From assembly GCF_000970685.1 (NCBI RefSeq), contig NZ_LAJB01000002.1:62001-126000 (forward strand): a stretch of DNA of 64,000 nt, written 5' to 3'. Position numbers and translations under genes: made by a program. This stretch comes from Domibacillus indicus. GTDB taxonomy: Bacteria; Bacillota; Bacilli; Bacillales; Domibacillaceae. Of the stretch, positions 8,564-36,916 are shown piece by piece (position 1 is the stretch's first letter; each line of letters starts with the position of its first letter). The notes beneath the pieces are model-generated. The model did no database searches. It had not been told where the DNA came from and worked only from the letters and a program-made list of their open reading frames with translations.

Positions 8564-11383
8564 TTACTGGCCTTTTGTTAAAACCGTGCGAAGAATACGT
8601 GCTTGTTCTTTTTTATGAACAATTGCATCCCCTTCAGACGGACTTGAACGGCGGCGGCGTCCGACATAACGGACTGTCACACCTTCAGGAACTGTATCAC
8701 GCAGTCTCGGGTCCATGTATGTCCATGCCCCCATGTTCTGCGGTTCTTCCTGAAGCCAGATCACTTCCTCTACATTCGGGAAGCGGTCTAAAAGAGCCGT
8801 GATTTCTTCTTTCGGGAATGGATATAATTCTTCTACCCGCAATACATGAAGCCAATCCAGGTTTTCTTCTGATTTATCAATTTGTTCGGCCAGATCAATT
8901 GATACTTTTCCGCTGCAAAGAACAAGGCGTTTCACCTGCTTCGGCTTGCTGCCTGTTCTCGGCTCCTCAACAATAATATTGAAGTTGCCATCTGAGAAAT
9001 CAGACGCTTTTGAAGCTGCCAGCGGATGGCGCAGCAGGCTTTTCGGCGTCATGATAACAAGCGGGCGTACTTCTTCTTTTTTCAAGATGGATGCCTGGCG
9101 GCGAAGGATATGGAAATACTGCGACGTTGACGACAGATTGGCAACCGTCCAGTTGTTTTCAGCCGCCATCTGCAGAAAGCGCTCCATGCGTCCGCTTGAG
9201 TGCTCAGGCCCCTGTCCTTCGTAGCCATGAGGCAGCAGGATAACAAGCCCTGATTTTTGGCCCCATTTTGCCCGTCCAGAAGAAACAAACTGGTCAAACA
9301 TAACCTGCGCCATGTTGGCAAAATCACCGAACTGGGCTTCCCATAAAACGAGCGTTTCCGGTGCGAAAACGTTATAGCCATATTCGAATCCGACAACCGC
9401 TGTTTCTGTAAGCGGTGAGTTAATTACATCAAACGAAGCGGATACATTGCTCAGGCCGTAGAGCTGATTGTATTCCTGGCCATTTTTTTCATCATGCAGC
9501 ACAAGATTGCGGTGTGCGAACGTGCCGCGCTGTGAATCCTGACCCGTTAGTCGGATTGGGGTGCCTTCTTTTAAAATAGAAGCAAATGCCAGTGTTTCAG
9601 CATGTCCCCAGTCAATCTGGCCGTCTTCTTCAAAAACCTGCTCGCGGCGCTTTAAAATACGCTCCAGCTTTTTAAATGGCTGGAAGTCTTCCGGCCACTG
9701 AAGAAGCTCGCGGTTGATAACTTTTAAGTCTTCTTCGCTTACACCTGTTTTATTGCTTGGAAGATCCTGCTCTACCACTTCCGGCGGATTCATAACGATA
9801 TCCGGATTTTCATCTTTTTTCGGCACAGTTTCAAAGAGTTCTTTAAGTTTTTGTTCGTTTTCTTTGTAAACCTCGTCCGCAAAGCCCGCTTCAATCACAC
9901 CGCGGTCTGCCAGCTTGTCGGCGTAAAGCTCGCGAACTGTTTTATGCTTATGAATAATATTGTACATATTTGGATTCGTCGTCATCGGCTCATCCATTTC
10001 GTTATGGCCAAACCGGCGGTAACCGATCAAGTCAATTACAAAGTCTTTGCCAAACCGCATCCGGTAATTTACTGCGATAAAAGCAGCCGCCACACAGGCT
10101 TCTGGATCATCCGCATTTACATGGACAATCGGCACTTCAAATCCTTTTGCCACATCGGATGCATAGCGGGTGGAACGAGAATCATATGTTTCGGTTGTAA
10201 AACCGATCATGTTGTTTGCGATAATGTGAATCGAGCCGCCTGTTTTATAACCGTTAATCTGGCTCATGTTAAATGTTTCACCAACAATGCCCTGGCCTGG
10301 AAAAGCCGCGTCACCGTGAATAATGATGGACATCGCTTTTGATACATCAAGCTCCGGTTTTCCTTTACTTGTCCGGTTTTCCTGGGCAGCACGTGTATAG
10401 CCGGCAACAACCGGGCTGACCACTTCAAGGTGGCTCGGGTTGTTCGCGAGCGTAATGCGCGCTGTCTGTGTATCTTCTTCCTTATAGCTGCGGTCAGCGC
10501 CAAGGTGGTATTTTACGTCACCCGTCCAGCCGTAATAGTTCATTTTCATTGAGCCGAGCGGCAGCATTTTTTTATTCGGGGCATGCGCAAACTCTGCAAA
10601 AATCATTTCATACGGCTTGCCAAGAATATGGGCAAGCACATTCAGCCGGCCGCGGTGGGCCATCCCGATATTAATGGTCTGCGAGCCTTTTACAGCTGAA
10701 TGGTGAACGAGCTCATCCAAAAGCGGCACCATTGCGTCGAGTCCTTCAATTGAGAAACGCTTCTGGCCGACGAAGGTTTTGTGGATAAACTTCTCAAAGC
10801 CTTCTACCTGTGTAAGACGTTTTAATAGTTTTTTCTTATCATCATCTGAGAAAGTCGGATAGTAATCGGTTGATTCGATTTGCTGGCGAAGCCATTGTTT
10901 TTCTTCCAGGTCATGTACCTGCGCAAACTCGAAGGCTACTTTATCCGTGTACACTTTTTTCAGGTGCATAATTGCATCGTAGCCATCCCGCACATGTGAC
11001 GGAGCTCCCGGACAAATATACTCGACCGGTATCTGGCGCAAATCTGCTTCTGATAACTCATAAGTTTCAAGATCAATCCGGCGCGTATCTTTTTTGCTGT
11101 CATCAAGCGGGTCAATATCCGCCGCCAGATGGCCGTAAATACGGATGCTGTCCGCAAGCTTTACCGCACGGAAGAGCTTGTCAAGATCACCCGCTGATGC
11201 GCCGTGCTGAGATGCATTGCCAGTTAATGATTCGGGCGGTCCCCACTGATCAAATAGCTGGCGCAGTTCCTGATCGACTCCATCCGGGTCAGTCAAGTAC
11301 TGTTCGTACACTTCCATTACATACCCAAGGTTCGGTCCCGAAAAATTTTTCCACGGGTTCCCCTGGCCAGTTTGCATGTTCAT
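8564..11383 (-). CDS. odhA: 2-oxoglutarate dehydrogenase E1 (thiamine diphosphate-dependent)
   Basis: This 939-residue protein decarboxylates 2-oxoglutarate and passes the succinyl group to lipoylated OdhB. The N-terminal segment [22 protein letters not shown], the ThDP region [13 protein letters not shown], the [10 protein letters not shown] motif and the C-terminal transketolase-like part ([16 protein letters not shown]) are in the expected order, and the length is typical of Bacillus OdhA. GGAGG lies nine bases upstream of ATG 11383; a second ATG two codons in is possible. A cre-like site about 80 bases upstream suggests carbon catabolite control by CcpA. Confidence 0.96.
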
Positions 11384-11438
11384 TCTGAAAAACCTCCACC
11401 TGTTTTGCCCATTTGATTTTTCTGTATACGTTCGCTGT

Positions 11439-11564
11439 TTACAAAATATGTACTAATAAGTTTAAAAACGCTTTCAGATCATCTTTACCACTCTGATTGC
11501 GAATTAAACAAAAAGGCAATTTCCGACTGTAAATGTTCAGCCGTTTTGCTGCTGCCTTTTTCAT
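11439..11564 (-). CDS. possible 41-aa small gene, apparently leaderless
   Basis: An ATG at 11564 opens 41 codons (begins [18 protein letters not shown], ends LLVHIL). The promoter-like pair at 11570-11598 would place the transcription start on the ATG itself, and no Shine-Dalgarno sequence is present, so any translation would be leaderless. Within the coding part, AAAAAGGCA pairs with TGCCTTTTT, so the same stretch could instead be a roughly 70-base terminated RNA. I do not recognise the peptide. It may also be the odhA leader. Confidence 0.3.
11463..11476 (-). promoter_or_regulatory. cre-like site (CcpA) upstream of odhA
   Basis: On the minus strand TGAAAGCGTTTTTA matches the cre consensus TGWAANCGNTNWCA at all positions but one. 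It lies about 80 bases before the odhA start. No clear sigma-A promoter stands between it and odhA. Confidence 0.5.
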
Positions 11565-11569
11565 GTACA

Positions 11570-11598
11570 ATCTTACTACTGTTCTTTGGAAAAACCAA
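11570..11598 (-). promoter_or_regulatory. sigma-A-like promoter upstream of odhA
   Basis: TTGGTT (11593-11598) and TAAGAT (11570-11575) are separated by exactly 17 bases on the minus strand. It could drive odhAB with a long leader, or a short RNA. Confidence 0.5.
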
Positions 11599-11922
11599 TG
11601 CTTTTTTGCAAAATTATTGAATAATTTTTAACTTTTCCTGAAAACGCTCCAAACGGCGCCGTTATGCGGTTTTTTTTAGATTAAATTGATAAAAAAGCGT
11701 TATAGAACCACCCTCTTTCATTAGTGAAATATTATACTGTTTCCACGTCATTTACGGCATTATATTAATGCCAATAAGATATTATTTTCTATCAATGAAA
11801 TGCCCTGGCGAGATTAAAAGCTGCTTTTTTAGGAAATAAATTTCTTTCTTTTTCAGCACCCCGCTTTTTTCTTTTCTTTCGTTTTTCTTTTTCTGCTAAA
11901 ATGAGGAAGGGAGTGATAAGAA

Positions 11923-12711
11923 ATGAGTCAGTTAATTTCATATGAGCACGTTCGGTTTGTCCGGGACAAAAATGTCATTTTAGAAAACATAAACTGGTCG
12001 GTTAATCCGGGCGAGCACTGGGCTATTCTTGGTTTGAACGGCTCCGGGAAATCGACTATGCTGAATATGATGGGCGGCTATGAATTTCCTTCAAGCGGCA
12101 CTATCCGCGTATTTGGCCACGAATACGGGCGTTATAACTGGGAATACGTGAAAAAGCGGCTTGGCTTTGTCGGCAATACCCTTAACCGGTTTTTAGAGAC
12201 ACTTAATATGGAAACGGCACGGGAAATTGTGGTCAGCGGGCGGTTTAATTCCATTGGGCTTTATGAGCAGACAGAAGCCTCGGACTGGAAAAAAGCAGAT
12301 GAACTGCTTGCTTCGTTCCGCCTGTCTTACCTGGCGGACAAGCCATACCGTCTCATGTCGCAGGGAGAGCAGCGGCGGGTGCTGATCGCGCGGGCGTTTA
12401 TGGCGGAGCCCGATGCCATGATTCTGGATGAGCCCTGTTCAGGACTTGATGTGCGTGCGCGGGAGGAACTGCTGGAAACGCTCGAGGTTCAGGCTGCAAC
12501 ACGCCGCACATCTCTTTTGTACGTAACGCATCATATTGAAGAGATTTTTCCGGCTGTTACGCATGCGGCAGTGCTGAAAGAAGGAAAATTCATGGCTGCC
12601 GGAGAGAAAAGAAGTGTATTAACGAACGAGGTTTTATCAGAGGCGTTTGGTCTGCCGGTTCAAATTGAGTGGCAGAACGGACGGGGCTGGCTGAAAGTCA
12701 TGCCTGAATAA
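11923..12711 (+). CDS. ylmA: ABC transporter ATP-binding protein, YlmA-like
   Basis: This 262-residue soluble ATPase has Walker A GLNGSGKST (about 38-46), a signature-like MSQGEQRR, Walker B DAMILDEPCSGLD and the switch histidine in YVTHHIEEI. It resembles B. subtilis YlmA and the ModF group, cytoplasmic ABC ATPases without an adjacent permease, and no permease gene is next to it here. GGGAGTG lies seven bases before the ATG. A TAAAAT box just upstream may be the -10. It is monocistronic and ends at a shared terminator facing trpA. Its transport partner, if any, is unknown. Confidence 0.83.
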   Translation: MSQLISYEHVRFVRDKNVILENINWSVNPGEHWAILGLNGSGKSTMLNMMGGYEFPSSGTIRVFGHEYGRYNWEYVKKRLGFVGNTLNRFLETLNMETAREIVVSGRFNSIGLYEQTEASDWKKADELLASFRLSYLADKPYRLMSQGEQRRVLIARAFMAEPDAMILDEPCSGLDVRAREELLETLEVQAATRRTSLLYVTHHIEEIFPAVTHAAVLKEGKFMAAGEKRSVLTNEVLSEAFGLPVQIEWQNGRGWLKVMPE

Positions 12712-12735
12712 TTAATACCGAATGCATCGGCTTTT

Positions 12736-12842
12736 GGGGCGGTATCACGAAATTTCAGGCGGTATTTCCATTTCCCGGGGCGGCAAAAAAATATATCGGC
12801 CCTGGCACACAGGAAACCGCCCCTGGATGATCAATACCGGCC
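12736..12842. repeat. cluster of GGSCGGTAT motifs in an intergenic region
   Basis: Between ylmA and the shared terminator lie GGGGCGGTAT (12736), GGCGGTATT (12758), GGGGCGG (12777), and in inverse orientation ACCGCCCC (12816) and AATACCGGCC (12833). They can pair into a branched hairpin. A second cluster of the same motifs lies at 20919-21006. No gene is evident here. Confidence 0.6.
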
Positions 12843-12870
12843 ATAAAGGCAAATCGGCTCGTTGTTTTCA

Positions 12871-12912
12871 TAAAAAAGCAGAAAGGTTCATGCCTGAACC
12901 TTTCTGCTTTTT
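12871..12912. terminator. shared bidirectional terminator of ylmA and the trp operon
   Basis: A perfect stem of 19 bp with a four-base loop (core GCAGAAAGGTTCA / TGAACCTTTCTGC), flanked by A and T runs on both sides, sits between the convergent ylmA and trpA. Confidence 0.92.
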
Positions 12913-12917
12913 TCGTT

Positions 12918-13682
12918 TTATGGAATGAGCTGCTTAATTTCACGGCCTTTTCCTTCATGCAGCAGCTGGACGATTTTGCTGCCGACAATCACGCCGCCGC
13001 AGGCTGAACCAAGTGCTTCCGCCTGCTCTTTCGAGGAAACGCCAAATCCCGCCAGTACAGGAACCGGGCTTTTTTCGGCAATGCGTGACAGGTGGGCATT
13101 AAGGTCGCCTGAAAAGCCGGCCCGTGCTCCGGTGATTCCGTTTACGGTTACAGCATAAATAAAGCCTTCTGCGTCTTTCACCGTTTCCGCAATCCGTTCC
13201 TCTGAACTTGTCAGCGTAACAAAGCGGATCATGGCGATGTCACGTTTTGCAAGCGGCTCCTTAAATTCGGCTTCTTCCTCCATCGGAACGTCCGGTATAA
13301 TCACGCCGGACACTCCAGCCGCTTCACATAACTGGGCAAAACGGTCTGCGCCGATTTTGAACACCGGGTTCGCATAGGTCATAATAACGACCGGTACGCT
13401 GATTTCGTCTTTAAAAGAAGCAAGTTCCTTTAAAATCTGGGTCAGCGTCACCTTTTCCTTCAAGGCCCGCTGGCCGGCTTCCTGAATAACCGGGCCATCT
13501 GCGACCGGATCTGAAAACGGGATGCCGAGTTCAACGACCGTTACACCTGCTTCTTCCAAAAGCAGAATGGTCTCTTTTAACGTATGAAGACCGCCGTCTC
13601 CTGCCATAATATAAGCCGTGAACGCTTTTTTTCCTTCCTGTGCTGCTTTTTGAAATGCTTCCGCCATTTTAAACTTCGTCAT
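12918..13682 (-). CDS. trpA: tryptophan synthase alpha subunit
   Basis: This 254-residue TIM-barrel protein cleaves indole-3-glycerol phosphate to indole, which channels to TrpB. The catalytic glutamate is in [13 protein letters not shown] (about residues 48-60) and the aspartate region is YIMAGDGG. The late GFGVSSKEQ and GVIVGSKIV phosphate-binding motifs are intact. It overlaps trpB by four bases (ATGA), indicating coupled translation of the alpha2beta2 complex. It is the last gene of the operon. Confidence 0.96.
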
Positions 13683-14890
13683 GCCTGCTTGCCCTCTCTT
13701 TCAAACCGATCTTTTATTTGCGCCACGTCTTTGTCGCCGCGGCCGGATAAGCAGATGGCAATGATTTCGTCTTTTTTCATTTTCGGCGCAAGCTTCAGCG
13801 CATAAGCGATCGCATGGGAGCTTTCCAGCGCCGGGATAATGCCTTCTGTTCTGGTCAGGGCTTTAAAGCCTTCCAGTGCTTCTTCATCCGTAATATGTTC
13901 ATAAATAACACGCCCGGAATCTTTTAAAAAGCTGTGCTCCGGCCCAACACCCGGATAATCGAGGCCTGCTGAAATCGAATGAGCTTCCTGAATTTGCCCG
14001 GCTTCATCCTGAAGCAGATACATTTTGCTGCCGTGCAGGACGCCGACACTGCCCATGGTCATGGACGCTGCGTGCTTGTCTGTATCAATGCCGCTGCCTG
14101 ACGCTTCCACACCGTACATTTTTACCGACTCATCTTCAATAAAGGGATAAAACATGCCCATTGCATTGCTGCCGCCGCCAATGCAGGCTACTACTGCATC
14201 CGGCAGGCGCCCTTCTTTTTCCTGCAGCTGTTTTTTTGTTTCTTGGCCGATGACTGCCTGGAAATCGCGGACAATCTGCGGAAATGGATGAGGCCCGAGA
14301 ACCGATCCCATAATATAATGAGTGTCTTCCACGTTTGTCACCCAGTAGCGAAGCGCTTCATTTACGGCATCCTTCAGCGTGCCGCTGCCCTGGGAAACAC
14401 TTTCAACACGCGCGCCAAGAAGCTCCATCCGGAACACGTTCAATTCCTGACGGCGGATATCTTCTTCCCCCATAAAAATAACGCATTCTAAATTTAAAAG
14501 AGCGCAGACGGTTGCGGTTGCGACGCCGTGCTGGCCGGCCCCTGTTTCTGCGACCACTTTCTTTTTGCCCATCCGTACCGCCAGGAGGGCCTGTCCAATC
14601 GTGTTGTTGATTTTGTGGGCGCCTGTATGGTTGAGATCTTCCCTCTTCAGGTATATTTTTGCGCCGCCTGCCGCTTTTGTTAAGTTTTCCGCAAAGTAAA
14701 GCGGATTTTCACGGCCGACATAATCGGTTAAATAATGATTTAATTCGGAAAGGAACGCCTCATCCTTCATTGCCGATTGATATGCTTCCTCTAGCTCTTT
14801 AACCGCACGCATTAATGATTCCGGGACGTAGCGGCCGCCGTACGGGCCGAAATGGCCTTTTTCATCCGGCTGACTGTATATATTACTCAT
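13679..14890 (-). CDS. trpB: tryptophan synthase beta subunit
   Basis: This 403-residue PLP enzyme joins indole and serine to make tryptophan. The PLP lysine lies in HTGAHKINN (about residues 92-100), the phosphate cup is [10 protein letters not shown], and [10 protein letters not shown] follows. Length and motif order are standard. It overlaps trpF by four bases and trpA by four, within the compact trpCFBA block. Confidence 0.97.
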
Positions 14891-15501
14891 CCTTTTCTGG
14901 CTCCTTTCGCACGCTGCACAAATTGAAAAATTTTCTCTTCATCTTTTCGTCCGTCTCTTTCAACGCCGCTTGAAATATCGACTGCAAACGGGCCCACGGA
15001 CTGAACAGCCTCTTTTATATTATCAGGATTCAAGCCGCCTGCCAAAATTAGCCGGCTTTTGTCTACATCCGCATTTTCAAGAACCGACCAGTCAAACGCA
15101 TGGCCGCTGCCGCCGCGGTACTTGGCAGGCGGGCTGTCGATTAAAATGTAATCAGCAGGGAATGCAAACATTTCTTTAAAGGACAAACCCTGCTTCACAG
15201 AAAAAGCCTTAATGACGGGAACCGGCATTTTTTGGGCAAATTGCGCCGTTTCGTCTCCATGCAGCTGAATATAATCGAGCCCGACCTCTTCGGCAATGGA
15301 ACGAATAGATTCTTCGGGTTCGTTAACAAAAACGCCCACTTTCTTCACGTCCGGACCAACCGCTTCGGCAAGCTGGCGGGCAAATTCGGCAGGGATTTTC
15401 CGGCTGCTCTCTGCAAAAACAAATCCGATCATATCGGCGCCGGCTTCCCGTGCCCAGCTGGCTGCTTCAAATGAGGTAATACCGCAAATTTTTACTTTCA
15501 T
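14887..15501 (-). CDS. trpF: phosphoribosylanthranilate isomerase
   Basis: This 204-residue beta/alpha-barrel enzyme isomerises N-(5-phosphoribosyl)anthranilate to CdRP. The N-terminal KVKICGIT carries the catalytic cysteine, the catalytic aspartate is in ILIDSP, and LAGGLNPDN and VDISSGVE bind the substrate phosphate. It starts one base before the trpC stop and overlaps trpB by four bases. Confidence 0.95.
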
Positions 15502-28754: not shown

Positions 28755-28782
28755 ACAGCAGAATAAGAGGATGGTGGAGAAT

Positions 28783-29928
28783 ATGTACAAATTCGTAATG
28801 CCGGAAGTGATTTTTGGAAGCGGCTCCATCTCGCAGACAGGCGAATGCTGTGCACGTCTCGGTGCACGTCATGTCCTGGTTGTCACAGATCAGGGAATCA
28901 TGGATGCCGGCTGGACGGAGCAGGTTTTAAAAAGCTGCCGGGTTGCGGGGCTGGCGGCCACTTTGTTTTGCGGTGTTTCCGTTAACCCGACAGATGATGA
29001 AGCGGATATCTGTACCCGCGTTTATCAGGAAAACGGCTGTGATGCCATCATGGCTGTTGGCGGCGGCAGTGCCATCGACATCGGAAAAGCAGCGGCTGTG
29101 CTGGCAGCAAACGGAGGGCATATTCGCGATTATGAAGGAGTGGATCGGATTTTGCACCCTCTCCCCCCTCTTGTTATGGTGCCGACAACGGCCGGCTCCG
29201 GGTCGGAGGTATCCCAGTTTTCTGTTATTGTGGACAGCTCCCGCCGGAAAAAAATGACCATCGTGTCAAAATCACTTGTTCCGGATATTGCTGTCATTGA
29301 CCCGGATGTGCTGGCAACAAAAAGTGCCCGCCTGACCGCCACGACCGGGCTGGATGTGATTACCCATGCGATTGAATCATTTGTGAGCGTGGCGGCCACT
29401 CCGATGACGGATGTGCAGGCAAAAAATGCGTTAATGCTTGCGTCCCGTTATCTGCGCCCGTCCGTCGCGTCAAAATATAACAGGGAAGCCAAGGAAAAAA
29501 TGGCCATGGCCAGCCTGCAGGCGGGTCTCGCTTTTTCAAACGCCATTTTAGGAGCTGCTCACGCGATGAGCCATACAATCGGCGGCCGGTATCCTTTTTT
29601 GCATGGCGATATTAATGCCGTCCTGCTGCCTCATGTAATGGAGTTTAACTTTATTGCCTGCCCGGATAAATTTCGGGAAATGGCCGTTTTAATGGGCGAG
29701 GATGTAACCGGACTTTCAGACATCGCCGCCGGTGAAAAAGCGATTCAATCGGTCCGGAAGCTGGCCGTTGATATCGGGGCGCCGCTGACGCTTTCGGAAA
29801 TGGGCTTTGAGGCCGAAGCGATTGCGGAAATCAGTGAAATCGCCCTGACAGATGCCTGCATGATTACCAATCCGCGCGATATTTCCGCTGAAGAAGTAGC
29901 CGTTCTGTTAACGAGGGCGCTGTCATGA
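28783..29928 (+). CDS. iron-containing alcohol dehydrogenase (group III)
   Basis: This 381-residue NAD(P)-dependent dehydrogenase oxidises an alcohol to an aldehyde in the cytoplasm. The nucleotide-binding GGGSAIDIGKAAA (about 94-106), TTAGSGSEVSQF and the metal ligands in AHAMSHTIGGRY and HGDINAVLLPHVMEFN place it in the Fe-ADH family. ATG 28783 is chosen with GGTGGAG just upstream; a more distal ATG overlaps that site. Its stop overlaps the start of the kinase gene (ATGA), tying enzyme and sensor together. The alcohol substrate is not known. Confidence 0.88.
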   Translation: MYKFVMPEVIFGSGSISQTGECCARLGARHVLVVTDQGIMDAGWTEQVLKSCRVAGLAATLFCGVSVNPTDDEADICTRVYQENGCDAIMAVGGGSAIDIGKAAAVLAANGGHIRDYEGVDRILHPLPPLVMVPTTAGSGSEVSQFSVIVDSSRRKKMTIVSKSLVPDIAVIDPDVLATKSARLTATTGLDVITHAIESFVSVAATPMTDVQAKNALMLASRYLRPSVASKYNREAKEKMAMASLQAGLAFSNAILGAAHAMSHTIGGRYPFLHGDINAVLLPHVMEFNFIACPDKFREMAVLMGEDVTGLSDIAAGEKAIQSVRKLAVDIGAPLTLSEMGFEAEAIAEISEIALTDACMITNPRDISAEEVAVLLTRALS

Positions 29929-31520
29929 ACCGGCCGGAAATGATTCATTTGCTGACCGGCGTGCAGTCATCGAAGCGAAACTATTACACAGAATTAAAAC
30001 GGACTGTCGATGAACTGCAGAGAAAAAACGAGCAGCTGAACATCATGAATAAAATGATGCACAGCTTTAATGTAAATATGTCCATCCAGGATATGCTGAA
30101 GCAAACCCAGGAAGCGCTGCAGGCAGCCTGGAAAATTGACCGGCTGAGCCTGGCTATGTGGGAGGATGGAGCGCTGAAAATGGCGGATGTTTATCCTGAA
30201 AACACGGCGTTTTTACCAGAAGGCACTGCTTTTCCCGTTCGGTCTTCTCTTTATTTCCGCGTTTTTTCAGCGGGACGGGATCTTTTGCATTCCGTTCAAC
30301 AAACGGATGCTTTTTTTGAATCGGATGCCTTTGAAGCACTCGGGCTCTGCACTGTCTGGCTGTTTCCGCTTCGAAGCCGCGGGGCTGTGATCGGCGTGCT
30401 CGGCCTTGCTTCTCATGAGGCAATTTGGTTTTCAGCAGAAGACCGGTCTTTTTTTCAGCATTTATCGGAGCAGGCAGCCGTTTGTATTGAAAATGCCCGG
30501 CTTTACCAGGAAGTCCTGCTCAGTGAATCAAGATGGGAATCGACGTTTCGCGCCGTGGCGGATTCGATCTTCGTGGCGGATCTTGACGGAACCATTTTAA
30601 CGAGAAATGACAGCGCAGCGGCCAGATGGCCGGATGCAAAAGCTGTTCTTGATTTTTTGCCGTCCCGCTCTTTTTTTCAAACGCTTCAAAAAGCAATTCC
30701 GCATACAGAAGAAATTTCAATACAAAACGAGATATATGAGTGCGCGTATTACCCGCTTCTTGATCAGAATCAATTGAACGGCATCATTGTTTACTTGAAA
30801 AACATTACCGAAAAACAGCTGATGCAGGCCCAGCTGATTCATTCGGGGCAGCTTGCCGCGATCGGGGAAATGGCTGCCGGAGTGGCGCATGAGCTTAATA
30901 ATCCGCTCACTGCGATTATCGGCAATACCCAGCTTTTGCTGAGGCTGTCCACTGAAGAAACAAAGCCCTTACTCGACGATATTGACGAATGCGGCAAGCG
31001 CTGCCGGGCCATTATCCGCAGCCTGCTCGCCTTTTCACGCCAGGAGCCTTCTGCGTATGCTCCCTGCTCGCTTAATGAAGCCGTATCTGAAGCGCTGCGC
31101 CTGACTGGACGGCAGCTTGAAAAGCAGCAGATCGAGCTGGCTGTTACAATGGACCCCCGGCTGCCGATGATTGAGGGAAATGTGCAGCAGCTCAGCCAGA
31201 TTGCGGTCAACCTGCTTATAAATGCGAAAGATGCCTGTCTGGAAAACGACGGGGACAGGCACGTGGCCGTTTGGACAAAAGCTGATGAAAACAGGGTGTC
31301 TCTTTTTGTGTCGGATAATGGCTGTGGAATGAAGCAGGAGCTGCTGGACGATATTTTCCACCCGTTTTTCACAACAAAAGCGGCGCATAACGGGACTGGC
31401 CTCGGGCTTTCTGTAAGCTTTGGCATCGCGGAATCGCATGGCGGAACGCTTTCGGTCGCAAGCGAACCTGGAAAAGGAAGCACCTTTCAACTGGCGCTTC
31501 CCATCTTAAAAAGGATGTGA
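29925..31520 (+). CDS. GAF/PAS-type sensor histidine kinase of the alcohol cluster
   Basis: This 531-residue soluble kinase starts with a coiled-coil-like segment (about 20-50). A GAF-type domain (about 50-190), a PAS-like region (about 195-290), a HisKA domain with phospho-acceptor His322 in GVAHELNNPL and an HATPase domain (NLLINAKDAC, DNGCGM, GTGLGLS) follow. It has no membrane segment, so it probably senses an intracellular signal such as an alcohol or aldehyde, or redox state. It is translationally coupled to the Fe-ADH and lies four bases before the sigma54 regulator, its obvious partner. Confidence 0.88.
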   Translation: MNRPEMIHLLTGVQSSKRNYYTELKRTVDELQRKNEQLNIMNKMMHSFNVNMSIQDMLKQTQEALQAAWKIDRLSLAMWEDGALKMADVYPENTAFLPEGTAFPVRSSLYFRVFSAGRDLLHSVQQTDAFFESDAFEALGLCTVWLFPLRSRGAVIGVLGLASHEAIWFSAEDRSFFQHLSEQAAVCIENARLYQEVLLSESRWESTFRAVADSIFVADLDGTILTRNDSAAARWPDAKAVLDFLPSRSFFQTLQKAIPHTEEISIQNEIYECAYYPLLDQNQLNGIIVYLKNITEKQLMQAQLIHSGQLAAIGEMAAGVAHELNNPLTAIIGNTQLLLRLSTEETKPLLDDIDECGKRCRAIIRSLLAFSRQEPSAYAPCSLNEAVSEALRLTGRQLEKQQIELAVTMDPRLPMIEGNVQQLSQIAVNLLINAKDACLENDGDRHVAVWTKADENRVSLFVSDNGCGMKQELLDDIFHPFFTTKAAHNGTGLGLSVSFGIAESHGGTLSVASEPGKGSTFQLALPILKRM

Positions 31521-31524
31521 ACGG

Positions 31525-32934
31525 ATGGCAAACATATTAATTGTTGACGATGAACAGGAAATCGGCCGCTTTTTAACTCGTCTTTTTCAGCTCCGAAACA
31601 TGAACGTTACCTATATTGACAGCGGCCGTGCTTTTGACCGGCTTAAACGGCTTGAACAGTTTGATGCCGCTTTTTTAGATGTACGGCTTCCGGACCGGAA
31701 TGGGCTTGACCTTTTAAAGAAGCTGAAAAAGCAGGCGCCGCTTTGCAAGGCGGTGGTGATGACCGGCTACAGCACGGTGAAAATGGCAGTGGAGGCCATC
31801 CAGCTGGGAGCGGAGGATTTCCTGGAAAAACCATTTGAAGATATCCAGCTGATTGAGGAATTAGCGAGCCGGCTGACCGAACAGGCAGATAAAGAAGAAT
31901 ACTTGCTGGCCGCCGGTGGAGAAGGAATTTTTTTAGGAACCAGCCCCGCAATGCATGAGCTGTACCGTCTGGCGCATAAACTGGCGTCAAAGCAGGTGAC
32001 GATCTTAATTGAAGGAGAAACGGGCACCGGGAAAGAACGGCTCGCAGAATTTCTGCACCGTGCCGGCAGCCGGGCTGAAAAACCGTTTATCGGCCTTAAC
32101 TGCGGGGCGCTCTCGGAATCCCTCCTGGAGAGTGAATTGTTTGGCCACGCAAAAGGAGCGTTCACCGGCGCCGCTTTTGACCGCGCCGGCTATTTTGAAG
32201 CGGCCTCATCGGGCACTCTGTTTCTCGATGAAATCGCAGAAGCCTCGCCTTCCACTCAGGTGAAGCTGCTGCGTGTTCTCGAAACGGGCGAGTTTTTTAA
32301 AATCGGCGATTCCGCACCGAAGCGGACCGGCGCACGCATTATTGCCGCAAGCCATGCCAATTTAGAAGAATCAGTCCGAGAAGGCTCCTTCCGTGAAGAT
32401 TTACTGTACCGGCTCGATATTGTAAAGCTGAGAATCCCGCCGCTTCGTGAGCGGCAGCAGGATATCCCCGCGTTTATTGATCGACACGCCAGGCAGTATG
32501 GTCTTACCTTTTCATTTTCTCCGGAAGCGATGAATGCTTTTAAACAGTACCGCTGGCCGGGCAATATGCGCGAGCTTGTCAACACGCTGCAGCGGCTTGG
32601 TGTTTTATATGCCGATGAACCGGTCATTACTCCATCAATGCTGCCGGAAAAAATGCTTCGGCCGGGTGCCGCGCCGAAAATAGGACAGTCGAATTCCACC
32701 GGTTCTTTTCATGCTGAATGGAGCTGTTTTTCAGATGAACTGATAGAGCTGTATAACAGTGATGAACCGCTGGAACTGGACCGGCTGCTGCACACCATGA
32801 AGCGGATGGAAAAGCGGGCCGCTGAAGCGTTTATTCGAAAAACATTAAAAGAAACAGCGGGCTGCCGGGAGCAGGCGGCGAAAAAGCTGGGTATCTCCAA
32901 ACGAAAAATACGGTATTACTTAAATGAAACGTAA
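31525..32934 (+). CDS. NtrC-type sigma54-dependent response regulator of the alcohol cluster
   Basis: This 469-residue regulator has a receiver domain (acidic D8/D9, phosphorylation site D52 in FLDVRLPD, Lys in EKPFED), an AAA+ sigma54-activation domain (about 135-365; Walker A EGETGTGKE, GAFTGA at 211-216, Walker B LFLDEIAEA) and a Fis-type helix-turn-helix at the end (AAKKLGISKRKIRYYL). GAFTGA contacts sigma54, so this protein should activate -24/-12 promoters. One such promoter lies at 36113-36129 upstream of the zinc alcohol dehydrogenase in the same cluster. Confidence 0.92.
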   Translation: MANILIVDDEQEIGRFLTRLFQLRNMNVTYIDSGRAFDRLKRLEQFDAAFLDVRLPDRNGLDLLKKLKKQAPLCKAVVMTGYSTVKMAVEAIQLGAEDFLEKPFEDIQLIEELASRLTEQADKEEYLLAAGGEGIFLGTSPAMHELYRLAHKLASKQVTILIEGETGTGKERLAEFLHRAGSRAEKPFIGLNCGALSESLLESELFGHAKGAFTGAAFDRAGYFEAASSGTLFLDEIAEASPSTQVKLLRVLETGEFFKIGDSAPKRTGARIIAASHANLEESVREGSFREDLLYRLDIVKLRIPPLRERQQDIPAFIDRHARQYGLTFSFSPEAMNAFKQYRWPGNMRELVNTLQRLGVLYADEPVITPSMLPEKMLRPGAAPKIGQSNSTGSFHAEWSCFSDELIELYNSDEPLELDRLLHTMKRMEKRAAEAFIRKTLKETAGCREQAAKKLGISKRKIRYYLNET

Positions 32935-32966
32935 AACAAGCTTCCCGGATGGCGGAAGCTTGTTTT
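32935..32966. terminator. shared terminator between regulator and DUF779 gene
   Basis: AAACAAGCTTCC and GGAAGCTTGTTT form a 12-bp stem with an eight-base loop and T runs on both sides, between convergent genes. Confidence 0.88.
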
Positions 32967-33323
32967 CTACTGGTTTAATTCCTGTCTCTCTTCCTCGGTG
33001 AATACGCGTGACCTTGTTAAAAACCGCTTTCCTTCCGGGCCTTCAAGGGAAAACATGCCGCCCCGCCCATCCACTACATCAATAATAAGCTGTGTATGCT
33101 TCCAGTATTCATACTGGGCATCACTGATATAAAACTTCGCACCGCCAATTTCTCCGAGCAGCCTGTCCGCGTCCCCGGTTAAAAATTCGCCGTCGGGGTA
33201 GCACATGGGCGAGCTTCCGTCGCAGCAGCCGCCTGACTGGTGAAACATAAGCGGGCCATGCCTGGCTTTTAGCGTTTCAATCAGCTCCAGAGCGGCGGGC
33301 GTTGCGGTTACCCGTTCTGTCAT
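32967..33323 (-). CDS. DUF779 protein linked to aldehyde dehydrogenase
   Basis: This 118-residue protein contains HQSGGCCDGSSPMCYP (about residues 27-42), a cysteine-rich motif typical of DUF779, a family repeatedly found next to aldehyde dehydrogenases of alcohol and acetoin catabolism. The role is unknown; the cysteines suggest metal binding or an accessory role to the dehydrogenase. ATG 33323 follows AAGGAGG by eight bases; an upstream reading lacks a site. It lies downstream of the aldehyde dehydrogenase gene, after a GC-rich hairpin. Confidence 0.85.
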   Translation of the reverse strand: MTERVTATPAALELIETLKARHGPLMFHQSGGCCDGSSPMCYPDGEFLTGDADRLLGEIGGAKFYISDAQYEYWKHTQLIIDVVDGRGGMFSLEGPEGKRFLTRSRVFTEEERQELNQ

Positions 33324-33334
33324 TGTCTGAGCCT

Positions 33335-33380
33335 CCTTATGAAAACAGCGCCGCCGCATCGTGCGGACAGCGCTTTTTTC
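33335..33380 (-). terminator. intercistronic hairpin after the aldehyde dehydrogenase gene
   Basis: On the minus strand a GC-rich stem with the inner core CCGCA-CGA-TGCGG and outer GCGC arms is followed by TGTTTTC. It may partly terminate before the DUF779 gene. Confidence 0.45.
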
Positions 33381-33382
33381 TA

Positions 33383-34900
33383 TTAAAAGAATCCAAGGGC
33401 GTCTTCTGAATAGCTGACAAGCAGGTTTTTCGTCTGCTGATAATGATTCAGCATCATCAGGTGATTTTCACGGCCGATGCCGGACATTTTGTAGCCGCCA
33501 AATGCCGCATGAGCCGGGTACTGGTGGTAACAGTTTGTCCAGACGCGGCCCGCCTGGATATTGCGGCCAAAGCGGTATGCCCTGTTTTGGTGGCGTGACC
33601 AGACACCGGCACCAAGGCCATAAAGGGTATCATTGGCCATTTCAAGCGCCTCTGCTTCATCTTTAAACGTAGTAACGGAGACAACCGGCCCGAAAATTTC
33701 TTCCTGGAAAATTCGCATTTTGTTGTTTCCTTTAAATACGGTCGGCTTTATGTAGTAGCCGTTTTCAAAGCCTTCTACAGTGTTGCGTTCTCCCCCGGTT
33801 AAGCATTCGGCGCCTTCCTGCTTGCCGATATCAAGGTAGGAAAGAATTTTTTCCATTTGCTCGTTTGATGCCTGTGCCCCCATCATGGTATCTGTATCAA
33901 GCGGGTTGCCTGTTTTAATTTCATTTACCCGTTTGATGACTCGTTCCATAAACTGATCGTAAATGCTTTCATGAATGAGCGCACGGGATGGGCATGTACA
34001 AACTTCTCCCTGATTAAGGGCGAACATCACGAAGCCTTCCACCGCTTTGTTTAAAAATGCATCGTCCTGTTCCATAATATCTTCAAAGAAAATATTCGGT
34101 GACTTGCCGCCCAGTTCAAGCGTAACCGGAATCAGGTTTTGTGAGGCATACTGCATAATCAGGCGGCCTGTTGTTGTTTCACCGGTAAACGCAATTTTGG
34201 CAATGCGTTTGTTGGACGCAAGCGGCTTTCCTGCTTCAAGCCCGAAGCCATTCACAATGTTGACCACACCCGGCGGCAGAAGATCCTCGATCAGCTCCAT
34301 AAAGACCATAATCGAAGCCGGTGTCTGCTCGGCCGGCTTCAGCACAACGCAGTTGCCTGCTGCAAGAGCCGGTGCGAGCTTCCATACGCCCATTAAAAGC
34401 GGAAAGTTCCATGGAATAATCTGCCCGACCACGCCGAGCGGCTCATGGAAATGATAGGCAACGGTGTCGTCATCAATCTGCGACAGCGAGCCTTCCTGCG
34501 CCCGGATCGCTCCGGCGAAATAACGGAAGTGGTCAATGGCAAGCGGCAGATCGGCATTTAATGTTTCCCGGACCGCTTTTCCGTTGTCCCAGGTTTCCGC
34601 AACGGCGAGCATTTCCAAGTTTTCTTCCAGGCGGTCTGCAATTTTGTTTAAAATAACCGCACGCTCCGCAGCCGAGGTTTTGCCCCAGGCATCCTTTGCC
34701 GCGTGTGCCGCATCAAGGGCCAGCTCAATATCTTCCGCCTGCGAGCGGGCGACTTCACAAAACACTTCGCCCGTCACCGGCGTAACGTTTTCAAAATACT
34801 GGCCGCCGACCGGCGCCGTCCATTCCCCGTTAATAAAGTTGTCGTACCTCTGCTTGAATGATACCTTTGACCCTTCTTGCCCTGGATTTGCGTAAATCAT
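33383..34900 (-). CDS. NAD-dependent aldehyde dehydrogenase
   Basis: This 505-residue enzyme oxidises an aldehyde, probably acetaldehyde, to the acid. The glutamate motif is [10 protein letters not shown], the catalytic cysteine lies in [13 protein letters not shown] (about residue 302), and NAD-binding motifs [10 protein letters not shown] and [10 protein letters not shown] are intact. Length and motifs match the AldA/ExaC/AcoD group that acts in ethanol and acetoin breakdown. AAAGGGGG lies about ten bases before the ATG. It is followed by the DUF779 gene and sits between the sigma54 regulator and the zinc alcohol dehydrogenase. Confidence 0.93.
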
Positions 34901-34938
34901 ATACCCGGTTCCCCCTTTGAATGTTGGAAATCTGCTAT

Positions 34939-34952
34939 ATAAAACGCTTACA
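34939..34952 (-). promoter_or_regulatory. cre-like site at the aldehyde dehydrogenase promoter
   Basis: TGTAAGCGTTTTAT on the minus strand agrees with the cre consensus TGWAANCGNTNWCA except at its last two positions. It covers the predicted transcription start, a place where CcpA would block transcription. Confidence 0.45.
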
Positions 34953-34957
34953 TTTCC

Positions 34958-34986
34958 AAAATAACGCCTTCTAAACTGAATGTCAA
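34958..34986 (-). promoter_or_regulatory. sigma-A promoter of the aldehyde dehydrogenase
   Basis: TTGACA (34981-34986) and TATTTT (34958-34963) are separated by 17 bases on the minus strand. No -24/-12 element is visible here. Confidence 0.62.
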
Positions 34987-34996
34987 CTCATTTGAC

Positions 34997-36070
34997 TTAC
35001 ATTGTCAGGACGATACGGCCGTTAATTTTTCCCTTTTCCATTTTGTCGAATACTTCATTAATGTTATCAAGCGGAGCAGTTTCAACCTGTGCTCTCACTT
35101 TGCCGCGGGCCGCAAAATCAAGTGCTTCTTTCATATCAAGCCTTGTCCCGACAATCGAGCCTTTGACGGATACACCATTTAAAACCGTATTGAAAATGGG
35201 GATTGGCAGCTCATCGTTCGGCAGTCCGACAACCACAAGCGTCCCGCCTCTTTTCACCGATTGATACGCCTGCTCAAACGCTTTTCTTGTGACAGCCACG
35301 CTGATGGCTGCCTGTACGCCGCCTACTTTTTCCTGAATCGCTTCTGCCGGGTCTTCGTTTAATCCATTTACCGTTTCATCGGCACCGAGGCTTCTAGCAA
35401 GCTCTAATTTTTCGTCGGCAATATCGACCGCGACGACGTTAAAGCCCATCGCTTTCGCGTATTGAAGCGCAATATGGCCCAGGCCGCCAATCCCGTAAAT
35501 CGCCACCCAATCGCCCGGCCTGGCTCCGGAAACCTTTAATGCTTTGTAGGTTGTGACTCCTGCACACAGGATCGGTGCTACTTCAACCGGATCGAGTCCG
35601 TCCGGAATTCTTGCCACATAGTCAGCCGGTGCCACACAATATTCAGCGTACCCGCCATCGACCGAGTACCCGCCGTTTTCCTGGTGCGGACAAAGCGTCT
35701 CCTGTCCCTGCAGGCAGTATTCACATTCTCCGCAAGCGGAATAAAGCCATGGGATTCCCACGCGGTCGCCCGCTTTTAATGAGGTAACTCCTTCGCCTAT
35801 TTCCTCGATAATACCGACTCCTTCATGTCCGGGAATAAGCGGCAGCTTCGGCTTGACCGGCCAGTCGCCATGCGCGGCATGCAGGTCAGTATGGCATACA
35901 CCGCACGCTTCGATTTTAACAAGCACCTCACCGCGTCCCGCTGCTGGCTTTGGCATATCCTTTACTTCCAGCTGCTGGTGAAACTCGTTGACAACAGCCG
36001 CCTTCATATTCGTACCTGCTGTTTTTCCTTCCTGCTCCCTATTAAATTCGTTGATAGTTGATGTTTCCAT
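34997..36070 (-). CDS. adhP: zinc-dependent alcohol dehydrogenase (AdhP/AdhA type)
   Basis: This 357-residue medium-chain dehydrogenase oxidises ethanol or related primary alcohols with NAD. It has the catalytic zinc motif [15 protein letters not shown] and [15 protein letters not shown], the structural zinc loop [15 protein letters not shown], and the Rossmann motif [16 protein letters not shown] 36070 follows AAAGGAGG by eight bases, which gives a 21-residue N-terminal extension before the usual beginning MKAAVV; that extension is unusual for the family. A sigma54 promoter lies about 45 bases upstream, so it is the likely target of the neighbouring NtrC-type regulator. Confidence 0.94.
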
Positions 36071-36112
36071 TTCTCATTCCTCCTTTTTTTAGTAGCCCTT
36101 CACGTTTTTTAA

Positions 36113-36129
36113 TGCAACTACCGTGCCAA
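36113..36129 (-). promoter_or_regulatory. sigma54 (-24/-12) promoter of adhP
   Basis: On the minus strand TTGGCAC, five bases and TTGCA match the sigma54 consensus completely, with GG at -24 and GC at -12. Transcription should start about 30 bases before the adhP ribosome site. The upstream 36186-36212 stretch contains separated TTCAGC/GCTGAA half-sites that might bind the activator. Confidence 0.85.
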
Positions 36130-36216
36130 TTGAAACACACCTGCTTTTAAGGATCTTTTGTAAAGGCGGGCCGAATTTTCGGCTTCTTCAGCCGTAAAGC
36201 CGGTCTGCTGAAACGA

Positions 36217-36246
36217 AAAAACGGCTTTCTCATCTTCGAGAAAGCC
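36217..36246 (-). terminator. terminator of the PAP2 gene
   Basis: CGGCTTTCTC and GAGAAAGCCG pair around a six-base loop, followed by TTTTTTCG on the minus strand. The stem overlaps the last codons of the gene. Confidence 0.82.
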
Positions 36247-36916
36247 GCCGGCGCATCCAGTATTCGGTAAAATGAAACAGCATAATGCAAAAAAACAGCC
36301 AGGCGGCACCGATGGAAAAGCCTCCGATCACGTCACTTGGATAATGAACTCCGAGATAAATCCGCGTTAAACCAACCAGCAGGATCATACAGCCGGCAAG
36401 CACGGCGGCCGTGATCTTTTTCCATTTTCCTTTCACAAGCTGAAACAGCATAAAAGACAGTGCTCCATAAAAAATAAAGGAACCCATCGAATGCCCGCTC
36501 GGAAAGCTGTAGCCTCCCTGCTCAATCAGGGGCAGAATATCCGGACGCTGGCGCTGAAACAGTTCTTTTAAAAAGCCGTTGAATACACCGCCAAGCCCGT
36601 TCACGAGCACGAAAAAAAGCGCCCACCCGTATCTTTTCCGAAAAAGCAGGAACAGGGCGATCAGCCCGGTCGCAGCCGTTAAAAATTTCACCGAGGCAAG
36701 GTCCGTAATAAACACCATGCGTGCGGTGCGCCCTTCATTGATCCAGGACTGTACCTCCTGAATGATCATTTTGTCAAAAGCGGCTACTTCATTTTCCTCA
36801 AGTGCGTCTACTACTTCAAAAAAGCCCCATGTAAACAAAACAAGGAATAAGGCAAGTGCCCCGTAATACGCATAAGGACGCCAGTTTTTTTGATTCAAAT
36901 CCGGTCTTCCTTTCAT
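36230..36916 (-). CDS. membrane PAP2-family phosphatase
   Basis: This 228-residue membrane protein has about six hydrophobic segments and the three PAP2 motifs: KELFQRQRP, PSGHS and GLTRIYLGVHYPSDV. Such enzymes dephosphorylate lipid phosphates, for example undecaprenyl pyrophosphate or phosphatidylglycerol phosphate, on the outer face of the membrane. The ATG at 36916 lacks a strong ribosome site; a TTG at 36949 would add 11 residues. It lies between adhP and dapF and is probably monocistronic. The exact lipid substrate cannot be read from sequence. Confidence 0.85.
   Translation of the reverse strand: MKGRPDLNQKNWRPYAYYGALALFLVLFTWGFFEVVDALEENEVAAFDKMIIQEVQSWINEGRTARMVFITDLASVKFLTAATGLIALFLLFRKRYGWALFFVLVNGLGGVFNGFLKELFQRQRPDILPLIEQGGYSFPSGHSMGSFIFYGALSFMLFQLVKGKWKKITAAVLAGCMILLVGLTRIYLGVHYPSDVIGGFSIGAAWLFFCIMLFHFTEYWMRRRLSRR

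Follow-up and report, generated by a model that had tools for sequence, protein, structure and literature searches.

In Pseudomonas aeruginosa (ErcA-ErcS) and P. putida (YiaY-PP_2683), the gene for an iron alcohol dehydrogenase (ADH) lies beside that for a histidine kinase, both genes are needed for full expression of alcohol-oxidation genes, and the dehydrogenase has been proposed as the sensory partner of the kinase (PMC12997753, PMC10308882). Here we describe a comparable arrangement in a 64,000-nucleotide stretch of Domibacillus indicus DNA (the window), in which genes for an iron ADH, a soluble histidine kinase and an NtrC-type regulator are clustered with adhP, a zinc ethanol dehydrogenase gene preceded by a sigma54-type -24/-12 promoter. 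The Pseudomonas clusters resemble this one in their neighbouring iron ADH and kinase genes and in the presence of an ExaC-type aldehyde dehydrogenase (ALDH). They differ in having a hybrid kinase, predicted to lie at the membrane, the LuxR-type regulators AgmR/ErbR and pyrroloquinoline quinone-dependent ADHs, whereas the window has a simple GAF(-PAS) kinase in which no receiver domain was found, an NtrC-type output, a sigma54 promoter and AdhP. The likeness was drawn from published descriptions and from the ErcA protein family model discussed below.

The M. smegmatis pair MnoSR regulates the use of methanol and propanediol, along with the 1,3-propanediol dehydrogenase gene MSMEG_6239, a neighbour by its locus tag (PMC11303327). 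Set beside the present locus by description, MnoSR is alike in that alcohol oxidation is controlled by a kinase/regulator pair that has an ADH gene as its neighbour. The MSMEG_6239 enzyme is of the iron type. Likenesses in sequence were found in Tsukamurella, Mycolicibacterium chubuense and two metagenome-assembled genomes, where the kinase has an LTG-x-RS-x-K N-terminus and a GAF-like part, and the linked iron ADH falls in the same clade as those of Bacillales; the Tsukamurella cluster has an N,N-dimethyl-4-nitrosoaniline-dependent methanol dehydrogenase nearby. These Actinobacterial clusters differ in having a HisKA_3 kinase and a NarL/LuxR-type regulator and no sigma54 activator, whereas the window encodes HisKA and AAA+ domains.

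Clostridium AdhR is a one-component activator that drives sigma54-dependent ADH promoters via three upstream sites (PMC7017808, PMC6615313), and its GAF and PAS domains are assumed to sense (PMC7017808). It shares with the present system a -24/-12 promoter of ADH genes, upstream sites, and GAF and PAS domains. It differs in its TGT-N10-12-ACA-type sites, in serving alcohol synthesis, and in having GAF/PAS fused to AAA+ where the window regulator has a receiver domain; the available parts of its reports mention no kinase or iron ADH partner. AcoR of Bacillus is likewise a sigma54 activator with a GAF domain, but is one-component and acts on acetoin dehydrogenase genes. EmaSR of Acinetobacter is reported to be an ethanol sensor/regulator pair (PMC10891947), and a survey of sigma54 regulons lists class IV ADH among the predicted targets of Bacilli and Clostridia (PMC12316311). 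No description of a two-component, sigma54-dependent alcohol system of Bacillales was found in the open-licence PMC literature, outside which most subscription papers lie. By the initial annotation, made from the sequence alone, no Bacillus system of this layout was known to have been described; for the Bacillales literature searched this holds, while alcohol-responsive two-component systems are known outside Bacillus, as ErcAS/YiaY and MnoSR show. New here is a recurring, helically phased GCCGA-N4-TCGGC repeat, the putative regulator site, upstream of adhP.

A conserved -24/-12 promoter and phased repeats upstream of adhP

The initial annotation had placed a full -24/-12 element before the zinc ADH gene. 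The predicted promoter, TTGGCACGGTAGTTGCA (36113-36129, minus strand), indeed has the form TTGGCAC-N5-TTGCA and lies 42 nt ahead of the AdhP ATG, with GG at -24, GC at -12, the correct spacing and an adjoining gene. It is the sole match without mismatch to TGGCAC-N5-TTGC in the window. With up to two mismatches allowed there were 62 matches against 76 expected, so the weight of the element lies in its exactness, place and conservation. Across 40 relatives, the pattern TTGGCAC-N5-TTGCW in forward orientation exceeded a reversed control in many genomes, not in all. At the best AdhP orthologs of 41 genomes (called at E <= 1e-110), the element was kept in 17 of 17, with scores of at least 0.98. 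In a wider set of 77 kinase loci from named genomes, AdhP was present in 64 and the element scored at least 0.93 in 58 of these, the scores being our own weighting, which differed slightly between scans. The six lower cases were L133, L154 and L179 (0.90-0.92), L159, L170 and the Actinobacterial L199, where no element is expected; L159 has an exact site with repeats further upstream.

Beyond the promoter is a perfect inverted repeat, GCCGAAAATTCGGC (36170-36183, minus strand), which begins 54 bp ahead of the -24 element and is a candidate binding site for the regulator. A weaker second copy, ACCGGCTTTACGGC (36191-36204, minus strand; 7 of 10 arm positions by eye), lies 21 bp further upstream. 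Both are contained in the stretch 36130-36230 that had been proposed for footprinting in the initial annotation. When upstream regions were read side by side, GCCGA-N4-TCGGC was seen in one to three copies; the repeat was defined from this reading and then counted in overlapping species. With one mismatch allowed, the window contains one repeat against 1.85 expected, and since one copy per 64 kb is unremarkable, the weight of the repeat comes from its place and conservation. At least one copy (8 of 10 arm positions) was found within 260 bp of the element at 17 of 17 best AdhP orthologs, against a background in the fetched regions of 176 such repeats in 398,662 bp. As controls, a second AdhP copy in one genome (G034; 70% identity) had neither element nor repeat, and among 30 ALDH upstream regions a -24/-12 element was seen in one and the repeat in none.

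At the kinase loci, a repeat was found within 140 bp of 51 of the 58 adhP promoters, whereas 200 runs of dinucleotide shuffling gave a mean of 1.37 and a maximum of 5 out of 58; after thinning of similar upstream regions the repeat was present in 43 of 48. Repeat starts clustered near -55, -65, -75, -86 and -96, a spacing that puts the repeats on the same side of the helix. The best fit among the seven periods tried was 11 bp (R 0.78, p ~4e-12), against R 0.72 at 10.5 bp and R 0.05 at 7 bp; because the species are related, the p-values are indicative only. The spacing between paired repeats was 21 bp in 14 of 24 pairs and 20, 22 or 41-43 bp in the remainder. Searching whole genomes with the single palindrome was uninformative: each strand of a genome gave 4-28 matches, and in total these did not outnumber the matches of the reversed control. 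The conserved, phased repeats are putative sites of a sigma54 activator.

adhP as the single predicted target

A combined pattern, stricter than the separate scans, required the repeat followed after 36-62 bp by a -24/-12 element. In the 41 genomes it gave 16 matches, 13 of them at adhP, and the reversed control gave two. The other three were one near-identical sequence (G005, G008, G012) whose repeat lacks the A/T centre; all 13 A/T-centred matches lay at adhP. The D. indicus genome itself (3.6 Mb, 99.4% complete) contains one match, at adhP. The regulator therefore appears to have one target here, which fits the claim of a self-contained circuit made in the initial annotation.

The same genome has one sigma54 gene and six matches to the sigma54-interaction domain, two of them strong (E 1e-63 or better) and four weak (20.8-36 bits, cut-off 20.2). 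The second strong match is a GAF-AAA-Fis, AcoR-like activator, followed by its own -24/-12 site and an E1/E2 dehydrogenase operon, which is the layout that AcoR would lead one to expect, and since the other strong activator is AcoR-like, the connection from regulator to adhP is also supported by elimination. With one sigma54 gene, two strong activators and a single combined match, the claim of a two-component sigma54 circuit whose output is adhP was supported, and we regard such a circuit as very probable.

Exact matches to TTGGCAC-N5-TTGCW occur in this genome at adhP, beside the AcoR-like activator and at C12:297977-297993 (G000, L207). The third of these sites sits amid short open reading frames (ORFs).

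The signalling genes

The iron ADH ORF (28771-29928, plus strand; Pfam Fe-ADH) has a conserved start, MYKF..., at 28783. It shares 4 bp (ATGA) with the kinase ORF (29925-31520, plus strand), as expected from the translational coupling that had been proposed. The kinase carries the N-terminal element LTGVQSSKRNYYTELK, a GAF domain, HisKA with an H-box, and HATPase_c. Its description as a GAF/PAS-like kinase was borne out for GAF by Pfam, which detected no PAS domain in the window kinase and did so in an ortholog (L052). Its solubility is supported by a top 19-residue hydropathy of 1.35, which indicates no membrane segment, and H322 is invariant in 25 of 25 aligned sequences. The regulator gene (31525-32934, plus strand) begins 4 bases past the kinase gene, as first read. 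Pfam, NtrC-like NCBIfam models and alignment give it a receiver domain, an AAA+ domain with GAFTGA, and a Fis-type helix-turn-helix, the last being a weak match (HTH_8, 19.5 bits, under the Pfam cut-off of 22). An H-box HisKA and HATPase in one gene and a receiver domain in the adjoining one are the marks of a two-component system.

The iron ADH as a probable part of the sensor

NF041833, the ErcA model ('alcohol dehydrogenase-like regulatory protein'), was the best of 17 NCBIfam models for the window iron ADH, with 453 bits against an equivalog cut-off of 550, which it does not reach. Seven further kinase-linked iron ADHs of Bacillota and Actinomycetota were scored, and all seven matched this model best, at 456-490 bits. 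In a tree of 36 iron ADHs (23 linked from Bacillota, four linked from Actinobacteria and nine others, ErcA itself not among them), the kinase-linked enzymes formed one clade with support of 99/97 and no other iron ADH inside; the nine others are few and include long branches, and three Actinobacterial rows are of unusual composition. The clade is apart from iron ADHs that serve as -24/-12 genes in the same genomes. The closest solved structures to the window iron ADH are methanol and 1,3-propanediol dehydrogenases. Of the 305 plasmid-collection records matched by the iron ADH, four were fetched (H1, H5, H18, H21); the two Cupriavidus records had no neighbouring kinase with the N-terminal element among their ORFs, and for the one Cupriavidus iron ADH scanned, L-threonine dehydrogenase was the best model. 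With ErcA as its best model, the window iron ADH is probably a component of the sensor and not just a further enzyme.

A candidate docking element at the kinase N-terminus

The sequence LTGVxSSKxxYYxELK stands at the extreme N-terminus of 17 of 17 kinases found by whole-protein search, and is near-invariant in 25 kinases of 40-75% overall identity to the window kinase. The 77 loci were found with patterns lying partly inside this element, and its conservation among them is therefore not independent. A related arrangement, LTG-x-RS-x-K with two aromatic residues and a GAF-like part, occurs in the kinases near linked iron ADHs of L199, L200, Tsukamurella and M. chubuense. These are HisKA_3-type kinases, and Pfam shows HisKA_3 for L199 and Tsukamurella. 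Comparison of Bacillales and Actinobacterial front-end profiles gave E 1.8e-10 over element and GAF together. In 246 genomes of the phylum of G041, the Actinobacterial front end was detected in G041 alone (E <= 1e-20, at most 12 candidates scored per genome), so it seems to be rare there. We propose that the N-terminal element docks the iron ADH.

Distribution of the cluster

Among the 41 genomes, a kinase ortholog was present in 17 and AdhP in 17, with both in 16 and each alone in one (Fisher p 2.7e-9, kinship ignored). Kinase orthologs were called by whole-protein search at E <= 1e-130, the next matches being generic kinases at ~1e-42 or weaker. Some of the 77 loci come from the 41 genomes, and neighbouring species are not independent samples. 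The predicted circuit is not strain-specific, being present in dozens of Bacillales species, including Geobacillus and Anoxybacillus. The genome with the kinase alone (G039) has a different row of iron ADH, ALDH and DUF779 genes, with a -24/-12 element and a repeat ~120 bp upstream.

By script, 69 of the 77 loci have the kinase immediately preceded by the iron ADH. At L159 and L169 the iron ADH is adjacent, and the script missed the divergent kinase N-terminus; at L199 it overlaps the kinase and at L200 some 0.7 kb separate it from a divergent kinase downstream. The L197 sequence breaks off within the kinase, and L198 has no iron ADH. At L127 (Bacillus wudalianchiensis, 8738-14899) tandem kinase copies are found, with an iron ADH before the first and a fragment before the second. 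Ahead of the L127 operon stands a -24/-12-like element, TTGGCAAGCCAGTTGCA, with no repeat, perhaps reflecting autoregulation. At L048 (10745-12472; the L134 genome, Bacillus sp. FJAT-42315) the iron ADH is divided between two ORFs, with kinase and regulator unbroken, which may be a sequencing matter or a real loss. The Actinobacterial metagenome-assembled L199 (20-9277) carries AdhP, two ExaC-like ALDH genes, DUF779, the linked iron ADH, a HisKA_3 kinase and a LuxR/NarL-like regulator, all clustered together; it is the same metabolic set with another predicted output.

Proposed pathway and alternatives

We propose that alcohol use is switched locally, by a two-component system acting through sigma54. 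In this model the iron ADH and soluble kinase would form the sensor, and kinase activity would change when the iron ADH binds or turns over an alcohol or its aldehyde, the signal passing probably via the LTGVxSSKxxYYxELK element and the GAF domain. From its domains and the coupling of the genes, the kinase would phosphorylate the adjoining NtrC-type regulator. The regulator would oligomerise on the tandem GCCGA-N4-TCGGC sites 54 and 75 bp upstream of -24, whose positions and phasing come from comparison, and its GAFTGA loop would open sigma54 polymerase at the -24/-12 element. AdhP, the one target found in this genome, would then oxidise ethanol, and the ExaC-type ALDH, with its own sigma-A promoter and probably under CcpA, would remove acetaldehyde. 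As a whole, with one adhP target and the iron ADH and kinase as sensor, the model is one we consider likely. Taken separately, the view that the iron ADH is the kinase's sensory partner is favoured with somewhat less assurance.

Several observations tell against parts of this model. Two unlinked iron ADHs, for which L-threonine dehydrogenase was the best model, still scored 425 and 436 bits with the ErcA model, so that this model alone separates linked from unlinked enzymes poorly. The apparent metal ligands (one Asp and three His, at positions that we take from the family) are retained in the alignment, and ordinary catalysis by the window enzyme is accordingly conceivable. G023 has the iron ADH in two separate ORFs, and in L142 it is displaced, which suggests that a sensor role may be dispensable. 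In Rhodococcus, two plasmid kinases bear the N-terminal element amid transposase genes, and no iron ADH is annotated within 4 kb of them. On the promoter side, four of the 17 AdhP genomes (G001, G004, G015, G034) lack the combined pattern, and seven of the 58 adhP promoters (L129, L136, L143, L144, L145, L148, L191; two of them Geobacillus) have no repeat at the threshold. At L167, L172 and L177 (Alkalihalobacillus/Alkalihalobacterium) a different iron ADH takes the place of AdhP as the -24/-12 gene and lacks the repeat, which makes another activator site likely there. The Domibacillus relative with AdhP alone (G002; C13:4542-5172, L055) keeps the adhP promoter and repeats intact beside fragments of kinase (residues 449-531) and regulator (1-91, 430-469); this is a natural loss of the circuit. 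Finally, the three exact TTGGCAC-N5-TTGCW sites of the D. indicus genome compare with four in the reversed control, and genome-wide counts alone are thus uninformative here.

The alternative that survives best keeps the sigma54 circuit and assigns sensing of alcohol, aldehyde or redox state to the kinase GAF/PAS part, the iron ADH being merely a co-transcribed catabolic enzyme. The GAF domain of the window kinase and the PAS domain of its ortholog would suit such a role, as would the sensory function assumed for these domains in Clostridium AdhR (PMC7017808), and the split, displaced or missing iron ADH genes of G023, L142 and Rhodococcus point the same way. Against this, 69 of the 77 loci, which were found by the kinase alone, have the iron ADH immediately before it, the linked enzymes form a clade apart from the -24/-12 iron ADHs of the same genomes, and ErcA/YiaY provides a precedent (PMC12997753). 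We therefore judge this alternative unlikely, and prefer the iron ADH as sensory partner.

Activation of the adhP element by the AcoR-like protein or by cross-talk, with the neighbouring two-component system serving something else, would account for the intact promoter of G002, and a second activator does exist. The AcoR-like gene, however, has its own adjoining -24/-12 site, AdhP and the kinase occur together in 16 of the 18 genomes with either, and 13 of 13 A/T-centred combined matches are at adhP, all of which makes this explanation improbable. That chance or structure (such as what is left of a terminator) accounts for the element and repeat, with adhP read from an undetected sigma-A promoter, is suggested by the frequency of two-mismatch matches, the genome-wide counts and a terminator-like stem-loop just upstream (36220-36249), but is highly improbable, since element and repeat are kept across genera in helical phase while their surroundings have diverged, the repeat has no T tail, and no sigma-A-like promoter match was listed within 36071-36229.

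The sigma54 circuit at adhP, if it works as modelled, supplies concrete wiring (sensor enzyme, kinase, activator, site, promoter and one target) for control of an ethanol dehydrogenase in many Bacillales, and would offer Gram-positive hosts a compact sigma54 expression system that responds to alcohol. ErcA/YiaY-type signalling from dehydrogenase to kinase also becomes a comparison across phyla, with a candidate docking element. More tentatively, the iron ADH and kinase may constitute a portable alcohol-sensing front end, in which a moonlighting enzyme docks on LTGVxSSKxxYY and which is joined to sigma54/NtrC outputs in Bacillales, NarL-type outputs in some Actinobacteria and perhaps hybrid-kinase/LuxR outputs in Pseudomonas; Bacillales would then possess a widespread, undescribed single-target ethanol circuit.

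The aldehyde dehydrogenase gene and flanking features

AdhP is encoded at 34997-36070 (minus strand) and passes the cut-off of the NCBIfam AdhP model NF006940 (431 against 344 bits). The ExaC-type acetaldehyde dehydrogenase gene (33383-34900, minus strand; NF050026, 996 bits, cut-off 900) follows it, and a DUF779 gene (PF05610) lies at 32967-33359 on the minus strand. A terminator-like stem-loop (32933-32966, minus strand) separates the regulator and DUF779 genes; no such stem-loop was listed downstream of adhP before the ALDH gene, and transcription may thus read through from adhP. Beyond adhP on the minus strand is a PAP2 gene.

A sigma-A promoter with a cre-like site had been proposed for the ALDH gene. 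A sigma-A-like promoter, TTGACA-17-TATTTT, is present at 34958-34986 (minus strand); the region contains nine matches of this kind, for an expectation of 7.4. The cre-like site, TGTAAGCGTTTTAT (34939-34952, minus strand), is also present, with two mismatches to TGWNANCGNTNWCA, which we take to be the cre consensus. In 30 ALDH upstream regions including that of the window, the best cre match had at most one mismatch in eight, two in 15 and three or four in seven; a match with at most one mismatch occurs in 0.95% of random 150-mers. An inverted repeat noted by eye, GTCAA-CTCAT-TTGAC (34982-34996), shares bases with the -35 hexamer of that promoter of the ALDH gene and is a possible repressor site. 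At L116 (the ALDH gene of G032) and L181, the ALDH gene has an exact -24/-12 element without the repeat, and in G032 a cre-like site lies just upstream.

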